Positions 2,679-23,003 of a stretch of 24,220 nt of DNA are shown one piece after another. Position 1 is the stretch's first letter. Each line of letters begins with the position of its first letter. The notes beneath the pieces are model-generated. The model worked only from the letters and a program-made list of their open reading frames with translations, did not search any database and was not told the DNA's origin. The translations under genes and the position numbers were made by a program. The DNA is taken from positions 1-24,220 of the IMG/VR virus record IMGVR_UViG_3300007539_000218; one strand, 5' to 3'. This DNA is from a virus.

Positions 2679-4013
2679 CTACTGATAAGAATCCCTTGCA
2701 ATATATATGTCGGTCTCCATTTTGCCACCTGCAGCGTATCGATGTGTAACACCACTGACCAAATAATTGCCAGAGTTTTTCTTATCAAGAACTGTGTTTT
2801 CCCCGTCCCATCTAGGCACATTGATAGTAATAACATTACCAGCAACGACACCAAAATTTCCAGGAACAGTAATTCTACCACTAATATGATCTAGTGATAA
2901 GAATCTGGACAAAGTATATGGTTTGGCATCAGCAGAAGTTTCATAGTTTCCCCCACTAATATTTTGTGCGGTTCTAATCGTCTTACCTGTTTGCCCACCA
3001 ATGGGTCCAGTATTATTAGTTGTGCTTTCTTCTCTTGTGATAGTATCCCCAAAAAGATGAGGTGATACACATGAATAGAAAACTCTCGATACTCCACCGA
3101 TCTGTTTTTCGACCTTCTGGAACTCTGAGAAGGGATTCGTACTTCCCAGATGACTCATTCTACCGTATGCTTCATTGATTGACCATCGTTTCGCTATGTT
3201 ATTTTCAGATTTCAAATTCACGAAATCAACACCGTAGAAGATACCACCGTAGGCACCCTTATTAAGATTCTCTTGTACATTTAGACCACTATCAATCACA
3301 TAGTTTCTAATTGCTAGTTGATCCTCTGGACCTGTGTTCTGAGCAACGTTCTTTGGTCTTAATGTAAACTCATACTTAGACTTTCCTTCACAGAGTTTAT
3401 CCATAGACACAAAATGAAATCCATCTAGTGCCTCATAGAATAGATATCCTGCTTGCCCTGGTTTGCTGCCACGAACTGCTTTTGCTGCTAGTTGAGCAAT
3501 AAAATCAAAGGGTCTGTAATTGGGACATATGAAAGATCCTGAGTGTTCTGTTGCTTCAATCTCAACTTTCTTTTGTGTGCCCAATCGTTTCTTCAGAACA
3601 TCACTGACAATTCCAGAGATCTTGGTATTCTTGTACGCAAATAAGAGTCTCTGATTGTCATTCAAATAACTCTCTCTAGAATTGAAGACTATATTATACT
3701 TCTTGACTTTCTCACCATCAACCAGATCACGAACCTCATTAAGATAAGTCTGCCATGTCATGCGACCACCAAATGATTCCATGTCAATATCTAGAACCTC
3801 CTGACCTACCAATTGTGTATAGAGACCTACGTTATCTTGAATGGTTAAAATAACTCTTACACTGGGACAGTCAATGCTTTGTAGAATTGTGACTCCCTGA
3901 ACATATGAAGTAATATCAGGAAATCTAGTTCCGTCTGCCTTTCTTAAAACAATACTATTAACTACAGCATCACCGACATTATTGATTCCTGCTGAGGATC
4001 TTTCCCTTGCCAT
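2679..4013 (-). CDS. Baseplate hub protein, gp27-like
   Basis: This 444-residue protein sits immediately before the spike gene gp5 and directly after the giant tail proteins. In many contractile systems that position holds the gp27/gpD hub, which carries the spike (T4 gp27 is 391 residues). It opens with a beta-rich section (SIVLRKADGTRFPDI, then VTILQSIDCPSVRVILTIQD) typical of the tube-like domains of hub proteins. A segment near residue 170 (FICPNYRPFDFIAQLAAKA) resembles the GPD-family 'few residues then FL/FI-QLA' pattern. The C-terminus again looks beta-rich (YLVSGVTHRYAAGGKMETDIYIARD), as in GPD/VgrG-like hubs. Its start overlaps the stop of the preceding gene (TAATG), which suggests coupled translation. 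The assignment rests on size, context and fold-like patterns, not on clear sequence identity to T4 gp27. Confidence 0.55.
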   Translation of the reverse strand: MARERSSAGINNVGDAVVNSIVLRKADGTRFPDITSYVQGVTILQSIDCPSVRVILTIQDNVGLYTQLVGQEVLDIDMESFGGRMTWQTYLNEVRDLVDGEKVKKYNIVFNSRESYLNDNQRLLFAYKNTKISGIVSDVLKKRLGTQKKVEIEATEHSGSFICPNYRPFDFIAQLAAKAVRGSKPGQAGYLFYEALDGFHFVSMDKLCEGKSKYEFTLRPKNVAQNTGPEDQLAIRNYVIDSGLNVQENLNKGAYGGIFYGVDFVNLKSENNIAKRWSINEAYGRMSHLGSTNPFSEFQKVEKQIGGVSRVFYSCVSPHLFGDTITREESTTNNTGPIGGQTGKTIRTAQNISGGNYETSADAKPYTLSRFLSLDHISGRITVPGNFGVVAGNVITINVPRWDGENTVLDKKNSGNYLVSGVTHRYAAGGKMETDIYIARDSYQ

Positions 4014-7000
4014 TACTTAACACCTCCACCAAGAATTTTACCTGCAATAGAACCAAGACTACCAGCAACGGTAGATGTGAGACTGGATCCAGAAGTAGAC
4101 TTCTGGAATCCAGGACTAGGTGTTCCACCACCCTGTTGTGCAGACTGAGATGCGTTGATAATTGCTTGCTGAATCATAGGTAGTATCTGTGCCATAGCCT
4201 GATCATTTAGAGCAGGTGGCAACTCTGCCATCTTGCCCTTTTCTACAAGGACACCAGCAATCACATCACTGGTAACCTTTACTAATTTATCTGTCAACAT
4301 GGTGGTTGCACCTTCCAAGTTCTGAATCTTGGCAGAATTCTGTTGAACCTGTTGTGTCTTGAGCAGTGCAGAGACCATCTTCACTGCGTTGACGTTCAGA
4401 ACTGTAGAACCACCAGGAACCAGAGCATTCTTTGCGTCAGGACCACCCATGGTGCCAGCAATCTTACCGACTGCAAAGTCTAAAGCACCCATACCAGCCT
4501 TCTTCAGGAAGTTTGATGCTCCAAGACCCTTACCTGCGACGTTCAGTGAGTCTAGTGTGCCACCAAACATCGATGTGAATCCAGGACCGAAGATCATCTC
4601 ACCACCTTGAGCAAGGATGTTGCCCATGTTGAAGTTGCCACTCATCAGTCCACTAAATGCATTATCAAATAACCCACCTGCGGACTGCATGAATCCACCG
4701 ACAGATCCACCGATCATATTACCGATACCACCAAATCCACCGATACCACCAAGTGCACCAGAGATAGCACCACCGATTCCACCACCCCCCATCATGCCAC
4801 TGATACCACCGATAGCAGCAGATGCTAGAGGTCCAATACCAGGAATAAATGATGCTGCAACTGGAGCAATAGCGCTTATTGCCTTACCGATACCACCACT
4901 AAATGCATCACCAATACCCTTTACAATACCACCAAGGAACATACGTTGTCCCTTGATTTGTGCTAATGCTTTGATTGTAGAATCCCAGGTTTTATGTGAT
5001 TTGTTACCACTAGCATATTGGTCATTATATGTACTGTCTTTTGTTCCACCCAGTCTACCTGCTGCAGTTGGACCTTGAGGCAAACCTCTCCAGGTTGGTG
5101 CTAGTTTAGCAGCAAACTCTTCGTTGGATATCTCTCCCTTGATCCAACGTTGCATACTATGACCACTATTGAGCATATCAATGGTCATTTTATCCTGAAC
5201 AGCAGGAGTAAACTTAGTGTTCTCGTCAAATCCTGATGTCTTTGCTCTACTCAAGATGTATCTTGGCATGTGCTGGTATCTACCAATAGCACCCTGAGCA
5301 TTCTTAGCTAACCAACCAATTGTTTTTTCAGTTGCCTTTGCGTTTGTTTTTCCTCTACTGGTATTGAATACATCATAGTTTCCATTTGATTCTACAGATG
5401 CAATCAAATCAAGAACACTCTTAGGGTCACCTCCAGGAGGACTCGTCCCTGTTGGTGTGGTCCCAGCTGGGTCTGTCCCTGTTGGTGTGGTCCCAGCTGG
5501 GTCTGTCGTTGTTGGTATTGTTGCAGCAGCTGCTGGACTTCCTCCAGGTAGAATACTCTTGAACCAATTCTTGATAGCATCGGTCATTGCTTCACCAAAG
5601 TCCTTTGCTGCCTGTTGATCTGATCCAGACAGACCCATAGCCTTATCCAGAATACCAGGATCAACACCAAAGATCTGTAGGATAGGACCCATCAATGTTT
5701 TTGCAATAGGTCCAAGCATATTGCCGATACCAAAAGGTATCTTACCTAACAAAGAACCTAGACCGATTAAGATTCCAGCACCTGCCATCTTGAGTGGCAT
5801 AGGAACGAGAGTTGCCATTCCCTGTGCCATCTTCTTACTGTTACCTAAGATAGCAGCAAGAGGATCATTACCAGAGTCAGTATATCTGTTCTTGATAGGA
5901 ACAACTGCTTCAGTTCCATGTGCTTCGATGGCACCACCACCAACATTGGCACGGTATCCAGAAGTCCTACCTCTAATAATACGAGCACCACCCTGAGCAG
6001 ATGGTCTTCCTGTTTGTCTTCTAAAAGGTACAATACCACCAGTTTCAAATGACCCCAGGACACTCATGGGATCACCAGCAGCACCACCCATCTCAAGGGT
6101 GTCGTTAAGTTGTGTCTTACCTTGTGCTGCCCCTGCAGGATCTGCTGATGGTGTGGATGCTTGCATTAGACCACCAACAGCAGCAGTGGTGACAATGGCA
6201 CCTAAAGCACCTTTGACGAGACCTCCTCCCTTCATTCTGCCAACACCAGCCTTAGTTGCCATGACAACTGCTTTACCAGCCTTAGCAGCAAGACCTAATG
6301 CCTTTGGTATCAGTCTGAATGCAGAGAAGATTCTCTTGACATCTTTAATAAGTTTGAAAGGATTCTTCAGATATCTGTTCACCATGAACAGAGAGAATAT
6401 CCCTACAGCAAACTGTAAGAATCCTTTAAGTCTATCTAATAGAGATGAATCACTAGCAAATATGTTAGTGAAACCTTCTAATGCATTGACAACTCCAAAC
6501 TCTACAAACTTGAAGATAATCTTACCAAGTTTTATTAAAACTTTTACTAGATCTACTGCAAGTTTTGCATTCTCTGGATTAGATAACCACTTCAATGCAC
6601 CATAAAGAACTAGAGTCTTCAGGAACTTGCCAATAGCAGCAAAAAATCCACCCCCACTTTCGGGTGTTGTATCTTCTGTACCTGATGCTGCAGCACTAGC
6701 AGGTTTTGCTTCTAATGCATTTTCTCTAGCACCTAGTCTAGCACGAGATGCTCTGATTCTTGCTTCTCTTGCTGATATTCTCTGATCTTTCGCAGCATTG
6801 ATCTTTCTCTTTCTATCCTCTGCTGCTAAACCTGCAATAGATTTATTGACCAGTCTAGCATTAGTGATCGATGCTTTGGTACTCTTATCAAGAGATAGTT
6901 TAATACTCTTCAGGATCCTGGTCTGTTCATTCAACTGACCACCAATTCTATTGAGAGCAAGGACTTGCATTCTTGGAGTCCCGTCACCTTTCGTCTTATA

Positions 7001-7084
7001 ATTTTTTCCAGCAATCTTTGCTGTCCCTCCAGTGGGTCTGACCCCACGAGGATTTACAAATTTATAGAAAGACGTTGCTGCCAT
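4013..7084 (-). CDS. Giant tape-measure-like tail protein with muramidase-like domain
   Basis: A 1023-residue, Gly/Ala-rich, hydrophobic protein. Residues 41-180 match the N-terminal part of the next giant gene (ALNRIG 43-48; LKWLSNPENA 164-173), so the two are paralogues. Several apolar helices follow (about 150-265). A low-complexity DPAGTTPTGT linker precedes a lysozyme/transglycosylase-like domain at about 555-710. There SVESNGNYDVFN places the likely catalytic Glu at 565, with GRYQHMP downstream, as in goose-type and soluble lytic transglycosylases. Residues about 720-850 are an extreme Gly/Ile/Met-rich, membrane-like region. Tail proteins that combine apolar helices with peptidoglycan-cutting domains are usually tape measures ejected during infection, and its place after gp26/gp51 fits that. 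It could instead be an inner-tail or hub-associated protein. ATG at 7084, five bases after the previous stop. Confidence 0.65.
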   Translation of the reverse strand: MAATSFYKFVNPRGVRPTGGTAKIAGKNYKTKGDGTPRMQVLALNRIGGQLNEQTRILKSIKLSLDKSTKASITNARLVNKSIAGLAAEDRKRKINAAKDQRISAREARIRASRARLGARENALEAKPASAAASGTEDTTPESGGGFFAAIGKFLKTLVLYGALKWLSNPENAKLAVDLVKVLIKLGKIIFKFVEFGVVNALEGFTNIFASDSSLLDRLKGFLQFAVGIFSLFMVNRYLKNPFKLIKDVKRIFSAFRLIPKALGLAAKAGKAVVMATKAGVGRMKGGGLVKGALGAIVTTAAVGGLMQASTPSADPAGAAQGKTQLNDTLEMGGAAGDPMSVLGSFETGGIVPFRRQTGRPSAQGGARIIRGRTSGYRANVGGGAIEAHGTEAVVPIKNRYTDSGNDPLAAILGNSKKMAQGMATLVPMPLKMAGAGILIGLGSLLGKIPFGIGNMLGPIAKTLMGPILQIFGVDPGILDKAMGLSGSDQQAAKDFGEAMTDAIKNWFKSILPGGSPAAAATIPTTTDPAGTTPTGTDPAGTTPTGTSPPGGDPKSVLDLIASVESNGNYDVFNTSRGKTNAKATEKTIGWLAKNAQGAIGRYQHMPRYILSRAKTSGFDENTKFTPAVQDKMTIDMLNSGHSMQRWIKGEISNEEFAAKLAPTWRGLPQGPTAAGRLGGTKDSTYNDQYASGNKSHKTWDSTIKALAQIKGQRMFLGGIVKGIGDAFSGGIGKAISAIAPVAASFIPGIGPLASAAIGGISGMMGGGGIGGAISGALGGIGGFGGIGNMIGGSVGGFMQSAGGLFDNAFSGLMSGNFNMGNILAQGGEMIFGPGFTSMFGGTLDSLNVAGKGLGASNFLKKAGMGALDFAVGKIAGTMGGPDAKNALVPGGSTVLNVNAVKMVSALLKTQQVQQNSAKIQNLEGATTMLTDKLVKVTSDVIAGVLVEKGKMAELPPALNDQAMAQILPMIQQAIINASQSAQQGGGTPSPGFQKSTSGSSLTSTVAGSLGSIAGKILGGGVK
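5445..5516 (-). repeat. 30-bp tandem repeat inside the giant tail gene
   Basis: Two perfect 30-bp units (5445-5474 and 5475-5504) are followed by a partial, diverging third (5505-5516). In frame they encode repeats of the decapeptide DPAGTTPTGT, a flexible linker just before the muramidase-like domain. The unit is a multiple of three, so copy number can vary without breaking the frame. Confidence 0.9.
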
Positions 7085-7089
7085 TTATA

Positions 7090-10000
7090 TTATCGACCGA
7101 AAGTTGATAGTGGTGATGGGGGTGCAGATCCACCACCTGCACCAGATTCTGCGGACATTGGTGTTGGGATTGGCATAATAATTCTCTGGACAGCACCGAT
7201 CTCAACAGGAGCTCTAGTGATACCAGGATGCAAGATACTCTCTCTATTTATCCCCGATGACTGACCCATCACTCTTGCACCACGAGTCTCAGCAACTTTT
7301 ACAAGACCACCAAGATTCTTACGTTCATAATCTTCAGGTTTATATTTCTTGCCCTGTGCCTCTGATGCTTTAATTCTTGTAGCAATAATATTCTCAGATG
7401 GAACCTCACCTGCGACACCACCAGTAGTAAATCGACCAAAGTTTACAATACCACCATGGTTCATTCTCTGCCTAATCATTTCACGAATCTTCTCTGGACC
7501 CGACCACATCTTGTCACCTTGCTTTAGTTTTGCGAGGTCCCACTTTCCACCCTGATTAGGCAGTTCTCCGTGAGTAGGTACAGTTTCTTTGGTGATGTCT
7601 GCTGCAGTCCACCCCCAATTCTTTGCAAGATTTGCAACTGCCTGAGCAAGACTTTTTACCTGAATGTCTTTGACTGGATATCTACCGAAATTGTTTTCCG
7701 ATGCCCCTGCCATTGCTGAGATTGAGAAAGAAGCATTGCCACTGTTGTTATTGTACGTGTGATATGGTGGACTCTGACCAAATGATGAGTGTCCTGGGTG
7801 CCTATTGGGAACAACAGAACCATCACCTTTCACATAACGGTGATAACCTGCCCATCCAAAATTTGCCATGATAGATCTATCATCATTATATGAACCTGCA
7901 GTCCAGTGCAAGATGATTTTTTTATTCTTCTTATTCTTACTAGTCTTATCGTCACCTATACCTGCAATTGATGGTGAGGCAGTTTCTCCTTTTGCTTTCA
8001 AGAATGCCTGAACCATGCCTGTGTTCGCAGCATTTCCATCTGCATCTGTGGTGTGTCTTAGACGACCACCAATTCCATTTATACCACCTTCATAAAACTG
8101 AAGTCCCGAACCAGTGTTGACTGCATGGAATTTTTGACCTTTGTCATCCTCAAAGAAAAACTTTTCATTCTCTTTAATTCCATAGTTTTTGTTTGGATCA
8201 AGTATGGGTGCACCTGTTGATCTTTTCACAGACTCTTCATCACCTAAACCTAGCAGGTTTGTGAGTCCAGGTGTAATACTTCTAGCAAGATCTGTAGCAG
8301 CACTTGGCAAATTGCTCAACCAACCTTTTAGTATCTCACCTAGAGCATCTTTGATTGGTTGTACAGTTGCTTGGAAGAATTTATTAAGGTGTTCCTTGAC
8401 CTGATTCTTTGCCGAGATGACAGGTGCCAGCATAGGAGTCTCACTTAGAGAGACAACACCTGCACCAAATGCTCTCTTTGCTGCAAACAACTGAGGACCA
8501 AACTCATTCCTTAGAATCTCACCACCAGGCATAATGTTGAGAAGTTCAGTAAGTGCTCCAACCAAGAAGTTTCCAGACTTCGTTCTAGGATCGTAAGCAT
8601 CAAATCCAGGACCTCTACCAGTTTCAGCACCTGGCAGTTTAGAACCAAACTCTTTGACTGTATTCATGATTGGTTCTAGTCCAAGAGACTTGACTAGCTT
8701 GTCCTCAGCATCTGTGATACCAGGAACCATACCACGAATAAAATTGTAAATATCTAGACCCATGGAAACCATAGGTCCCCATTGACCACCAGGAACCAAT
8801 CCAATCAGATCGAATGCACCAGAGGTAAACTCCAATAGTGCTCCGATCGGGTCACCATTTTTCAGTGCCTCATATCCAAAGTATAGGTTTGCAATACCAC
8901 CAACAATAGGAATTGCTTTCGATCCGATCTTCTTCATCAGACCTTCACTACCTTTGCCACCTAGTTCTTTCAGAATCTTGGCACCTTTAGGTCCAAGAAC
9001 ATTCATTAGTTTCTTTTCAATAGAACCTTTCAGTCCCCTCAGTTTACTTAGTAAAGGTTTTACATATTCAATAGCAGGTTGCACAAGTTTTCTCAAGGCA
9101 GCATCTTTAATGCCATTCAAACCTTGACCAACCTTGACTAGTCCAGACTGAAAACCATTACCAAGTTTCTTAAGACCAGCACCAGCATCACCAATACTTT
9201 TTCGTGCACCTTCTGCAACACGACCACCAAAGTTCTTTGCTCTTTGAAATTGTCTCTCAAAAAAGTTTGGACCTGAGGGTTTTGGTTTGGGTTTGGGTTT
9301 ACCACCAGGAACATCTCCACCACTAGTCTCTTTAGGTGGTTTGATTCCAGCAATACCACTAATGATATCCCAAATAAACTTCAATGATCCAATAGGATTC
9401 AATAGGAATGCAACTGATCCGATGGCAGGTAGACCTTTCAACAGGTCACCAAAACCTGTCATCAGTTCACCGACTTCACCACTCTTGACACCATTGATGA
9501 TCTTACCAATACCACCTGCAGCAGATCCAATACCATCTAATGCCCAGGTGGTCCATCCAACAACAAACTTTGCAAGAGGTTTTAACACCCACTTGTAGAA
9601 ATTTCCAAATGCATCAGCAAATCTTCTTGCATTGTTTGGATCGGACAACCACTTGAAAGCTGCCCCCATAACAAATGTTTTGAATAGTGCCCCACCGATT
9701 GCACGGAAGAATCCAAAGACACCATTCAGAATACCTAGTCCACCACCATCATCAACAGGTTTCTTATCTAAATTCTTTGCTGCTGCCTGAGAAGGTGTTG
9801 TTGGTCTTCGTCTCTGTAGATTGGGTGCTGCTAATTGTGGTCTTCTCTTCTGTCCGTTTAATCTTTTTAGTGCAGTTCTTCTTCTCTCAATATCATTAAA
9901 GAGAGACTTCTGAATCTTGTGATCTACATTGCGTCTTCTCGTCAAAGAATTTGCAATGCTACTTAGAATTGTATTGTTGGTGGAGATCTGTTTGCCCACA

Positions 10001-10101
10001 CCATTTAATGCCTTGACTGTAGGCGATGATGCTCCACCAACCTCTCTATATTGTTGAGGTTTTTGTGCTAATTTGTTCTGTGGTTTAGCAAGTGTCGCCA
10101 T
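7090..10101 (-). CDS. Giant tape-measure-like tail protein with amidase-like domain
   Basis: A 1003-residue protein, directly after gp51 (TAAATG junction). The N-terminus is basic and helical (residues 30-110). Residues 118-200 are apolar and match the neighbouring giant protein (FKWLSDPNNA 149-158), and further Gly-rich apolar helices follow to about 470. Residues about 725-870 form an amidase_2/PGRP-like domain: IILHWTAG gives a candidate zinc His at 732, YHRYVKGDGSVV follows, NSGNASFSISAMAG is the central strand, and VPTHGE gives a second His at 844, with KWDL near 855 in the place of the usual K/D-P-G end. This suggests N-acetylmuramoyl-L-alanine amidase activity that locally opens the host wall. 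Position after the gp26/gp51 chaperone pair supports a tape-measure role. The precise role of each giant protein cannot be settled from sequence alone. Confidence 0.65.
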   Translation of the reverse strand: MATLAKPQNKLAQKPQQYREVGGASSPTVKALNGVGKQISTNNTILSSIANSLTRRRNVDHKIQKSLFNDIERRRTALKRLNGQKRRPQLAAPNLQRRRPTTPSQAAAKNLDKKPVDDGGGLGILNGVFGFFRAIGGALFKTFVMGAAFKWLSDPNNARRFADAFGNFYKWVLKPLAKFVVGWTTWALDGIGSAAGGIGKIINGVKSGEVGELMTGFGDLLKGLPAIGSVAFLLNPIGSLKFIWDIISGIAGIKPPKETSGGDVPGGKPKPKPKPSGPNFFERQFQRAKNFGGRVAEGARKSIGDAGAGLKKLGNGFQSGLVKVGQGLNGIKDAALRKLVQPAIEYVKPLLSKLRGLKGSIEKKLMNVLGPKGAKILKELGGKGSEGLMKKIGSKAIPIVGGIANLYFGYEALKNGDPIGALLEFTSGAFDLIGLVPGGQWGPMVSMGLDIYNFIRGMVPGITDAEDKLVKSLGLEPIMNTVKEFGSKLPGAETGRGPGFDAYDPRTKSGNFLVGALTELLNIMPGGEILRNEFGPQLFAAKRAFGAGVVSLSETPMLAPVISAKNQVKEHLNKFFQATVQPIKDALGEILKGWLSNLPSAATDLARSITPGLTNLLGLGDEESVKRSTGAPILDPNKNYGIKENEKFFFEDDKGQKFHAVNTGSGLQFYEGGINGIGGRLRHTTDADGNAANTGMVQAFLKAKGETASPSIAGIGDDKTSKNKKNKKIILHWTAGSYNDDRSIMANFGWAGYHRYVKGDGSVVPNRHPGHSSFGQSPPYHTYNNNSGNASFSISAMAGASENNFGRYPVKDIQVKSLAQAVANLAKNWGWTAADITKETVPTHGELPNQGGKWDLAKLKQGDKMWSGPEKIREMIRQRMNHGGIVNFGRFTTGGVAGEVPSENIIATRIKASEAQGKKYKPEDYERKNLGGLVKVAETRGARVMGQSSGINRESILHPGITRAPVEIGAVQRIIMPIPTPMSAESGAGGGSAPPSPLSTFGR
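7245..7252 (-). promoter_or_regulatory. Possible internal late promoter
   Basis: Minus strand GATAAATA, one base from the T4 late consensus, lies inside the end of the amidase-carrying gene, about 160 bases before the next ATG at 7084. It could boost the downstream giant gene, but an 8-base match inside coding sequence is weak evidence. Confidence 0.25.
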
Positions 10102-10302
10102 TTAACCTTCGTATGGTGCTGATGGTTGGTTTTGTTTCTGCATCTCACGTTCCTGCTCAAGATGTTGAGTCAGCATGATCACATACAAATCCCTTTCCCA
10201 GGGCATCAAACTATCTATCTCAGTTAGACTCCACTTGTGATGTTGCACTAGGGCAAAATTAGTTCGGTAATAATTTTCCAAACTAGAGTACAACATACTC
10301 AC
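10102..10302 (-). CDS. 51: Baseplate hub assembly protein gp51-like (possible frameshift extension of gp26)
   Basis: A 66-residue protein with the pattern W-x3-EID-LMPWERDLYVIML (residues about 24-44), which resembles the second part of tail-assembly chaperones and cyanophage gp51. In T4, gp51 helps assemble the central hub and is not retained in the virion. It lies in the -1 frame of gp26 and overlaps its stop. The open frame can start at GTG 10302 or ATG 10296, but neither has a well-spaced Shine-Dalgarno; the only purine-rich sequence (GAGGGA 10325-10320) is 17 bases before the GTG. That makes expression as a gp26-gp51 fusion by -1 frameshifting attractive. The following tape-measure-like gene starts immediately after its stop. 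Confidence 0.6.
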   Translation of the reverse strand: MSMLYSSLENYYRTNFALVQHHKWSLTEIDSLMPWERDLYVIMLTQHLEQEREMQKQNQPSAPYEG

Positions 10303-10325
10303 CCGAAAAAAGACGCAAGTCCCTC
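10286..10325 (-). promoter_or_regulatory. Candidate programmed -1 ribosomal frameshift signal
   Basis: Reading the minus strand in the gp26 frame, GAGGGA (10325-10320) lies 8 bases before the heptamer T TTT TTC (10311-10305), which is correctly phased as X XXY YYZ. Four bases later comes a 5-bp hairpin, GAGTA-TGTTG-TACTC (10300-10286). The gp26 TGA stop is at 10301-10299, one codon after the heptamer. A -1 slip continues as CGG GTG AGT ATG straight into gp51. Upstream SD-like element, slippery heptamer and downstream hairpin are the same three parts found in bacterial dnaX frameshifting. Confidence 0.6.
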
Positions 10326-11024
10326 AAGAACAACTTCACTCTTCACTTTAGTCTCTGGATTAGTGACTTCAGTTTTCCATTGCAACTTAGGCATGGTTTC
10401 AAAGAATGATTGCAGTTTCATAAACTGATCGTTAGTCAGACTCTCCAAGAATTCAGTGACTTCTTTCTTGGTACAGTCTTTAGTTTCCCACACTTCTTCA
10501 CCTTGGAAGATTTGTGAGATACAACCTGCAGCAATAGAGAAGACAGCGTCAACAGAATCTGATTGAGTAGTTCCTTCACCAGAGATGTTCTCTTTCACAA
10601 AGGTATCAAGACTAGGATAAGTCATGACAACACCAGTGTCATCATCAAGCATGATCTTGGGATCATGACCCTCAGGTTTTTCACATACAACTTCCTCTAG
10701 AGGAACTTTGATCTTAATTTCTGTCACACCGTCGTCAGGTGCAGTGATAATAACATCTGCTTCTTCACCTGCTGACTTAGCACGAATGCGAAGGAACAGA
10801 TATTCGATGTCAAACGTGGGAAGATTATCAATCTTACGTTTGATCGATGTGCAGTTACGGATGATAGACTTGACAGCATTCATCATGTCTTTTTCACTGT
10901 TCGATTCCATAGCCATCAGAAGAATCTTCTCTTCCTTAACCAGGAACGGACGGTATTTTACTTTTTCACCTGTAGAAGGCAACTCACATTCGTACTCAGG
11001 TACGACAAGCTTTGGCAAAGGCAT
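10299..11024 (-). CDS. 26: Baseplate hub assembly protein gp26
   Basis: A 241-residue protein that resembles T4 gp26 (208 residues; the T4 baseplate family of hub-assembly proteins). Recognisable parts are the start (MPLPKLVVPEYECELPSTG), the conserved VKYRPFLVKEEKILLMAMES segment (residues about 22-41), and the helical C-terminal part with CTKKEVTEFLESL and MKLQSFFETMPKLQW. These resemble tail chaperone proteins that bind the tape measure during assembly. It is followed by gp51 in the -1 frame with a candidate frameshift signal in its last four codons, then by the tape-measure-like genes. This is the same order as chaperone, frameshifted chaperone and tape measure in lambda-like phages. Confidence 0.75.
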   Translation of the reverse strand: MPLPKLVVPEYECELPSTGEKVKYRPFLVKEEKILLMAMESNSEKDMMNAVKSIIRNCTSIKRKIDNLPTFDIEYLFLRIRAKSAGEEADVIITAPDDGVTEIKIKVPLEEVVCEKPEGHDPKIMLDDDTGVVMTYPSLDTFVKENISGEGTTQSDSVDAVFSIAAGCISQIFQGEEVWETKDCTKKEVTEFLESLTNDQFMKLQSFFETMPKLQWKTEVTNPETKVKSEVVLEGLASFFG

Positions 11025-11053: not shown

Positions 11054-11680
11054 TTAGTCGTCAAAGAAGGATGTCTTTCCAAGAACTTCAGCAGCAAGAT
11101 TGAATGCACCACCTTGCCTGAATCTGTATCGTTCTACCTTGAAAGAAATTCTAGTTTGAAGTAGTTGTGTTCTAGCAGAACTTAATTGGTATGGACTGAT
11201 ATTATATGGCAAAGCATTTTCAATGTCCCATCTACCAGTAATAGAAGTTGCGGTTGGTTTCTCTTTTCTACCGTTCTTCTCTAACTTATAGATGATCATT
11301 CTAGGTGATACAATGTCGTTGTAATAGTTGACAACGTTACCAGTATCATCATGAATAGCAGCATACCATGCCTCAAAAAATCTGTTGAAGTCTAGATCTT
11401 TTGGAGACATCAGATTAAGAGTCACCTCACCATAAACAGTTCCTGTGGCATAGTTAATTCCAACACCATGGTCTCTGTGCTGTGCTGTGGTGACCTGTTT
11501 GGTGGGAGTAGATACAGAATCGCAATAGAAGTTTAGAATCTCACCTAGATTCTGACCATCAATAGTAAAAGTTTCTCCTGCTAAGACATTGGGAACTTGT
11601 AACTGTACAGCATACCTATTACTGGTTGCAAAACCAGCATTAGATAATTTTGTAAGCATTGAACTGACATCGAGTGTCAT
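11054..11680 (-). CDS. Tail-tube-fold protein, probably gp54-like tube initiator
   Basis: This 208-residue protein has the signature arrangement of the T4 gp19/gp54 tail-tube family: ATSNRYAVQLQVP near residues 18-31, a FYCDSVSTPTKQV segment near 51-63, a YGEVTLNLMSPKDLDFNRFFEAWYAAI strand-helix region near 83-110, and a final beta strand (TRISFKVERYRF). T4 gp54 (320 residues) caps the baseplate centre and starts tube polymerisation. This protein is shorter, so gp54-like is a best guess; a second tube protein is the alternative. It lies between a possible gp2 gene and gp26, in the same leftward operon. Confidence 0.5.
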   Translation of the reverse strand: MTLDVSSMLTKLSNAGFATSNRYAVQLQVPNVLAGETFTIDGQNLGEILNFYCDSVSTPTKQVTTAQHRDHGVGINYATGTVYGEVTLNLMSPKDLDFNRFFEAWYAAIHDDTGNVVNYYNDIVSPRMIIYKLEKNGRKEKPTATSITGRWDIENALPYNISPYQLSSARTQLLQTRISFKVERYRFRQGGAFNLAAEVLGKTSFFDD

Positions 11681-17931: not shown

Positions 17932-18636
17932 TTAGGGGTGAATTAGAATACAAGGTTGTGTATCAGAACAATAGTCTTCGGCACACTTACAGTCTTCAGT
18001 GCACCACTCAAGAGCACGAGAGATAGTAGGAAACTCACAGATGAAAATCTTTTTAATTGCCTTGGCAATGTCCATGTGTTCCTTCTGAGTGCCATTCTTC
18101 TCACGCAATTGGATATAGTGGACCCAATTGCGAAGATTGCCCGTCATGTACATACGAGTTGGTACACATAGGGGAAGCACATTGCGAGCACACTCCTTTG
18201 CAATGCCAGCATCAAGCATATCCTGATACAGTTTCATTGCTTCACCAAAATGATGTTGCATTAGAATCTGATACTTCTGAACAGTATAAGGATCTACATC
18301 ATCAATAGAGTTCTGTCGATTCTTATCATCTTGACGACGAAGGTCAGGCAGAGGAATAGAATCAAACCCAAGGAGGGTAGAGTCAGCATACCGTTGTGAA
18401 AATTCTTGAAATGTGAAGGACCTATGACGCAAAATTTGAGCTGCGATTGCCCTAGTAGTATTGATCTCAACAGTCATGGTTGCTTGCTCGAACACAGACC
18501 AGTGTCCATGCTTGATACAATATGCCAGCAGACCCTCCACCTTAGGGTTCTCCTGATTATTAGGATTGCTCACACGTGCAATGTAACCGATTGTCTTCTC
18601 TGCATCAGGAGTGACAGAGATCTTACATACTTTCAT
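17932..18636 (-). CDS. thyX: Flavin-dependent thymidylate synthase ThyX
   Basis: A 234-residue enzyme that makes dTMP from dUMP using FAD, NADPH and methylenetetrahydrofolate. The diagnostic motif RHRSFTFQEFSQRY is at 70-83 and matches RHR-x7-S-x-R. Other conserved parts are GHWSVFEQ (44-51) and ECARNVLPLCVPTRMYMTGNLRNW. The last 25 residues are unusual: five Cys in 18 residues (212, 216, 218, 223, 229), which I do not associate with ordinary ThyX. It supplies thymidine for phage DNA synthesis and sits in the replication operon. Its start overlaps the upstream membrane protein gene by 4 bases. Confidence 0.95.
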   Translation of the reverse strand: MKVCKISVTPDAEKTIGYIARVSNPNNQENPKVEGLLAYCIKHGHWSVFEQATMTVEINTTRAIAAQILRHRSFTFQEFSQRYADSTLLGFDSIPLPDLRRQDDKNRQNSIDDVDPYTVQKYQILMQHHFGEAMKLYQDMLDAGIAKECARNVLPLCVPTRMYMTGNLRNWVHYIQLREKNGTQKEHMDIAKAIKKIFICEFPTISRALEWCTEDCKCAEDYCSDTQPCILIHP

Positions 18637-22238: not shown

Positions 22239-22350
22239 ACTTTTTAATATACTCTCGTAGTTCAGGTGTCTCTTCCCACTCCCACAATTGATTGTGTTGG
22301 GGATCTTTCTTTTGAATAAGGTGCTGCTTCTTCATAGTACGGACAATCAT
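22222..22350 (-). CDS. Tiny conserved protein after talC
   Basis: 42 residues: MIVRTMKKQHLIQKKDPQHN, then QLWEWEETPELREYIKKYGKTN. Its ATG overlaps the talC TGA (ATGA), so it is probably translated by coupling to talC. An internal ATG at codon 6 is an alternative start. The KDPQHNQLWEWEETPE segment seems familiar from other cyanophages. Function unknown. Confidence 0.6.
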   Translation of the reverse strand: MIVRTMKKQHLIQKKDPQHNQLWEWEETPELREYIKKYGKTN

Positions 22351-23003
22351 TTGATTTTCTCCTGTAGTTCAGCCCAGTCTTTGTCAAAGAGTTCTAAACC
22401 TTTGTCAGTGAGAATGTGCTGATACATCTTATTATACACTGAGAATGGCATTGTGACAACATCTGCACCGTATTTAAATGAATCAATAACATGCTTCACA
22501 CTACGGATAGATGCAGACAGGACTTGAGTGTCAGTCTGTCCATCAAAAATACCAGCAATCTCTCTGATCAATGTGATACCGTCAAAGGATTGGTCATCGA
22601 CTCTACCTACGAAAGGGGAAACATAGGTAGCACCTGCTTTTGCAGCAAGAATTGCTTGTGCAGGTGAGAAGACAAGAGTAACATTAACAGTTCTTTTTAG
22701 ATCTGTCAAGTACCTACATGCTTTCAGTCCTTCAAAAGACATAGGTACTTTAATGGTGATGTTCTCAGCATAATCAATGTAAGGTTGTGCCTGAGCAAGC
22801 ATCTCTTCGTGATGACCACCGACAACCTCTGCAGAGATCGATGCAGACTCAGGGAACAGGTCAGAGATCTTCTTAATAACTTCTAGTGGATCTTTGCCTT
22901 GCTTAAGCATGAGAGATGGGTTAGTAGTGACCCCATCAATAAATCCCAAATGTGCCACCTCTTCGATTTCGTAGAAGTCTGAAGAGTCTAAAAAGATTTT
23001 CAT
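22347..23003 (-). CDS. talC: Transaldolase TalC
   Basis: A 218-residue member of the small TalC/FSA-type transaldolase family (not the larger host TalB). The Schiff-base lysine is Lys85 in NITIKVP, the same number as in E. coli FSA. Asp6, TTNPS (26-30) and SAEV (57-60) are further active-site elements. In cyanophages TalC is thought to push host carbon flux into the pentose phosphate pathway, giving NADPH and ribose phosphate for nucleotide synthesis during infection. The promoter's TATAAT lies 20 bases upstream; no clear Shine-Dalgarno is seen. A coupled 42-residue gene follows. Confidence 0.96.
   Translation of the reverse strand: MKIFLDSSDFYEIEEVAHLGFIDGVTTNPSLMLKQGKDPLEVIKKISDLFPESASISAEVVGGHHEEMLAQAQPYIDYAENITIKVPMSFEGLKACRYLTDLKRTVNVTLVFSPAQAILAAKAGATYVSPFVGRVDDQSFDGITLIREIAGIFDGQTDTQVLSASIRSVKHVIDSFKYGADVVTMPFSVYNKMYQHILTDKGLELFDKDWAELQEKIK

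Follow-up and report, generated by a model that had tools for sequence, protein, structure and literature searches.

Comparative evidence for a probable programmed -1 ribosomal frameshift at the gp26/gp51 junction of T4-like phages

Organization of the gp26/gp51 locus

The viral DNA analyzed in this work, hereafter the window, is a stretch of 24,220 nucleotides from a marine T4-like phage in which a tail tube gene, gp26, gp51 and a 1003-aa ORF follow each other in this order on the minus strand. The features considered are the following:

11054..11680, minus strand: tail tube protein, directly upstream of gp26; PF23849 Phage_TTP_2 (E 6.5e-07) and phrog_45, tail tube (E 5.8e-38)
10299..11024, minus strand: gp26 ORF, 241 aa, TAC-N, predicted short form of the tail assembly chaperone; PF12322 T4_baseplate (E 5.7e-69) and phrog_150 (E 3.3e-74)
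10320..10325, minus strand: SD-like GAGGGA, 8 nt 5' of the heptamer, of uncertain role
10305..10311, minus strand: putative slippery heptamer T TTT TTC, read from the sequence; homologous T TTT TTN in relatives
10102..10305, minus strand: gp51 coding region in the -1 frame, 67 codons after the predicted slip plus the stop; TAC-C domain, phrog_634 (E 2.5e-26)
10102..10302, minus strand: alternative reading from the ORF listing, gp51 as an independent ORF of 66 aa starting at GTG, without an SD at the usual spacing
10286..10300, minus strand: small hairpin GAGTAT-GTT-GTACTC, 4 nt past the heptamer; -4.7 kcal/mol over 36 nt, z -1.6
10260..10285, minus strand: second predicted hairpin, CTAGTTTG/CGAACTAA, a possible further stimulator; folds of 48-60 nt reach -12.3 to -13.8 kcal/mol, z -2.4 (60 nt)
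7090..10101, minus strand: 1003-aa ORF in tape-measure position, directly downstream of gp51; amidase domain PF01510 (E 5.1e-06)

The position of the 1003-aa ORF is what suggests that it encodes a tape measure protein. Two ORFs of around 1000 aa follow gp51 (4013-10101), the first with an Amidase_2 domain and both matching PHROGs named endolysin; these could be tape measure proteins that also carry domains for cleaving murein. Elsewhere in the window, the regions 22347-23003 and 17932-18636 resemble by eye a TalC-type transaldolase and a ThyX-type thymidylate synthase, both usual metabolic genes of cyanophages. An AlphaFold model of gp26 (pLDDT 85) was compared with the PDB, where the HK97 tail assembly chaperone (2ob9) had the top probability among the matches listed, as a weak match (probability 0.35, E 1.2), and with predicted viral structures, where it retrieved chiefly other baseplate hub or gp26-type proteins. 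A search of the gp26 sequence against solved structures and a search of NCBIfam gave no match.

On the minus strand, the 3' end of gp26 reads GTT CTT GAG GGA CTT GCG TCT TTT TTC GGG TGA, followed by GTATGTTGTACTC. A previous sequence-only reading had pointed to a correctly phased T TTT TTC heptamer, an SD-like GAGGGA 8 nt upstream, a small hairpin 4 nt downstream, and a gp51 frame open through the site and devoid of a good ribosome binding site, all of which were recovered here. Direct reading placed the heptamer at 10311-10305, in a phase that fits tandem -1 slippage (zero-frame TTT TTC to TTT TTT), GAGGGA at 10325-10320 and the hairpin at 10300-10286. The gp51 frame spans the heptamer, from an opening 18 nt 5' of the re-read base to the stop at 10102, and it is in this frame that phrog_634 is matched. 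The window does have start codons for gp51, a GTG (10302) and an ATG, but neither is preceded by a good SD. The same reading had located the heptamer four codons before the gp26 stop, which holds if counting starts at TCT; from TTC, a single codon (GGG) intervenes before the TGA at 10301-10299.

Conservation of the putative slippery site and its phase

Alignment of the junction across relatives, which the sequence-only reading had proposed as a check, revealed that all close relatives examined share the heptamer, its phase and the open -1 frame. A first set consisted of 80 viral contigs retrieved with the gp26 of the window, and in all 79 readable junctions gp51 was in the -1 frame, with T TTT TTC or T TTT TTT at the homologous place. 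The main set, to which further contigs and isolates were added, comprised 172 readable gp26 3' ends (window included), and 171 of them had T TTT TT(C/T/A) at that place and gp51 in the -1 frame, the sole readable exception without the heptamer being Vibrio D531. The heptamer ends in C in 155 of these 171 junctions; when the 85 distinct junctions bearing the site are considered, T TTT TTC is present in 72, T TTT TTT in 11 and T TTT TTA in two. Isolates with the site include S-ShM2, S-CRM01, P-SSM4, S-H38, RN05-S, S-PM2, ValKK3, Aeh1, Sf-CH11, PhiW-14, pf16, Sinorhizobium phiN3 and Stenotrophomonas DLP6. The position of the heptamer is fixed, while that of the gp26 stop varies from 7 to 34 nt past the heptamer start, and the C-terminal part contributed by gp51 is 56-68 aa long in 83 of the 85 junctions. 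The first set contains 28 loci (L037, L041, L045, L047, L053 and similar) whose gp26 stop is 31 nt past the heptamer start instead of 10, the longer overlap being protein-coding in both frames and the heptamer unmoved.

Conservation was then set against chance with 52 representatives at 85% protein identity, using as background 12,061 codon pairs elsewhere in the same genes. All 52 have T TTT TT(C/T/A) at the site, while T TTT TTC was found 0 times, and T TTT TTT and T TTT TTA once each, in the background. The second Phe codon of the site is TTC in 72 of 83 junctions, versus 27% elsewhere (binomial p ~5e-30, a value that ignores relatedness and is hence indicative). By this comparison, conservation of the putative slippery site is far beyond chance.

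Start codons of gp51 and the possibility of a separate protein

The main alternative would be that gp51 is a separate small protein, made by translational coupling or by re-initiation, with the GTG (10302) or the ATG overlapping the gp26 stop as its start codon and the heptamer being incidental. Both codons lie just past the site in the window and its closest relatives, so that independent or coupled starts could occur in the window, and gp51 is annotated as a separate gene in some isolates (S-ShM2, P-SSM4, S-PM2). However, in 39 of the 85 junctions the first 16 codons of the -1 frame, ahead of the conserved core, include no ATG, GTG or TTG, and gp51 would thus be left without ordinary means of starting in those 39. 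Synonymous replacements of the heptamer would carry no cost under this alternative, yet it hardly varies, and the same domain appears fused in T4, as described below. We consider a separately initiated gp51 highly improbable. Two isolate records list gp51 as a mere stub, of 30 aa in one and 37 aa in the other.

RNA structure and the SD-like element

Folding of 36-nt segments was compared with that of shuffled sequences keeping the -1 frame protein. Segments that begin 3-6 nt into the -1 frame are more stably folded than the shuffles (mean z ~-1.5), with 44% of the junctions at p <= 0.05, while segments at least 42 nt upstream or at least 30 nt downstream gave mean z values of -0.6 to +0.1. Across the family, the excess of structure peaks directly 3' of the heptamer, where RNA structure probably stimulates slippage. 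A single fixed hairpin with covariation was also considered and found little support within clades: the register of the hairpin differs between clades and there is little covariation, so that what emerges is an energetic signal and not one proven structure.

With respect to the SD-like element, GAGGGA is present, as the sequence-only reading had indicated, and the family mean for pairing with the anti-SD is -4.7 kcal/mol, versus -1.6 at random gp26 sites. Synonymous shuffles reach -4.2 kcal/mol, and a stimulatory role is unproven because the element is hardly stronger than they are; it finds no support beyond the conserved EGL-type peptide. Taken singly, the SD-like element and the small hairpin of the window each constitute weak evidence.

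Slippage of the RNA polymerase on the T6 run, which would place the frame change in the mRNA and not on the ribosome, could draw on the homopolymer at the site and on the fact that UUUUUUU is underrepresented in E. coli genes whatever the frame, for which polymerase slippage is a possible cause (PMC4066793), but it is likewise highly improbable, given a run of just 6-7 bases that is C-terminated in 155 of 171 junctions, a phase that always suits tandem tRNA re-pairing, and a structure excess right downstream that fits ribosomal slippage.

Relatives without the standard heptamer

A group of more distant loci, in Ackermannviridae, Pseudomonas Cygsa01 and Vibrio K452 and D531 (L183, L184, L181, L186, L089), lacks any XXXYYYZ heptamer but keeps the -1 phase of gp51; the last codons of gp26 are there xTT TTY, one further codon and TAA. 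In Klebsiella Magnus, ATT is found where others have the ATG overlapping the stop, and gp51 is unannotated. It is conceivable, if rather unlikely, that the stimulatory hairpin is fixed in place but re-registered in each lineage and that the heptamer-free Ackermannviridae, Vibrio and Pseudomonas relatives use a third, undescribed route to the long form (a non-standard slip or an AUU start).

Proposed mechanism and products

We regard it as very probable that a programmed -1 ribosomal frameshift yields two forms of the tail assembly chaperone, gp26 and gp26-gp51. The majority of ribosomes would stop at the gp26 TGA and give the 241-aa short form, and a minority would move one base backwards at U UUU UUC, with both tRNA-Phe re-pairing with UUU UUU before translation goes on in the -1 frame. 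The slipped product would be a gp26-gp51 fusion of 307 aa (...LEGLASFF-RVSMLYSSLENYY...). By analogy with lambda G/GT, coating of the tape measure protein would fall to the short form, and recruitment of tail tube or hub proteins to the rare long form. The case for frameshifting is comparative, resting on sequence, phase, conservation, missing gp51 starts in many relatives, local RNA structure excess and homology to T4 gp51; from it we infer the occurrence of slippage, its frequency and the binding partners of the two forms. The earlier proposal of a gp26-gp51 fusion made by frameshifting and acting as a tail chaperone finds support in the conservation of the site, the gene order and the fusion present in T4 gp51.

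Comparison with T4

In T4 gp51, a protein of 249 aa, residues 1-201 match PF12322 (E 3.9e-52) and residues 147-246 match phrog_634 (E 1.2e-23). A profile built from the -1 products matches residues 210-245 of T4 gp51 and not T4 gp26, the E-values being from a two-sequence search; BLASTP of the gp51 of the window against T4 gp51 gave no match, though the profile search finds it. According to these matches, T4 gp51 is a gene-encoded fusion of predicted gp26-like and gp51 domains. T4 thus has a gene for each form, gene 26 for the short and gene 51 for the long, on opposite strands, in contrast with the single locus with a predicted frameshift of the window. Near the end of T4 gene 26 (L091:3303-3929), the two Phe residues are kept as GAG TTC TTT, without a slippery run, where relatives have TTT TTC, and this is consistent with the long form being encoded in gene 51. 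The statement in the sequence-only reading that T4 encodes gp26 and gp51 apart is thus right as far as separate genes are concerned, but T4 gp51 already includes a gp26-like domain.

Comparison with known systems

Frameshifting is reportedly described, in the abstract by Vladimirov and colleagues, as conserved in several T4-like groups. A 2016 review describes G-T frameshifting as conserved in long-tailed phages except T4 (PMC5009743). Vladimirov, Gautam and Davidson (2022, Virology 566:9-15) subsequently identified the TAC genes of T4-like phages and the reliance of T4 itself on two genes, and, according to two later papers citing that work, some T4-like phages have a short gene plus a separate fused long gene (PMC10885494) and poly-T slippery signals are known in their TAC-N genes (PMC12846349). 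By these sources, frameshifting in T4-like TAC genes has been known since 2022 and the window is a well-supported further case; the idea behind the earlier proposal of a gp26-gp51 chaperone is not new, as Vladimirov et al. (2022) precedes it.

Our data lend support to the more recent view that the frameshift is retained in many relatives of T4, marine cyanophages included, while T4 uses two genes. In marine T4-like genomes, gp51 would be best annotated as an extension of gp26, instead of being sometimes missed or cut to stubs of 30-40 aa, as is now the case. The positional RNA-structure result, the census of start codons and the heptamer-free relatives may add some detail.

In lambda, the gene order is V-G-T-H and the heptamer of G/GT is G GGA AAG. 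The order found in the window (tail tube, gp26, gp51, 1003-aa ORF) matches the former, and both systems have two overlapping ORFs between the tail tube gene and the tape measure gene (putative in the window), with a -1 slip, predicted in our case, near the end of the first ORF and a short and a long product. They differ in the heptamer, T TTT TTC in the window, and no sequence relation between them is claimed. E. coli dnaX shares the combination of heptamer, upstream SD-like sequence and downstream structure, although it is an unrelated gene, the SD element of the window is unsupported beyond coding constraint and the hairpins are clade-specific. In the TAC genes of Vandenendeviridae and Andersonviridae (phage Adele, PMC12846349), which are other phage families, a T-rich motif at the TAC-N end, GTTTTT, is likewise the site of a conserved -1 frameshift. 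The closest counterparts are the T4-like TAC genes gp26 (TAC-N) and gp51 (TAC-NC), which belong to the same protein families as those of the window and whose long form likewise combines gp26 and gp51 domains.
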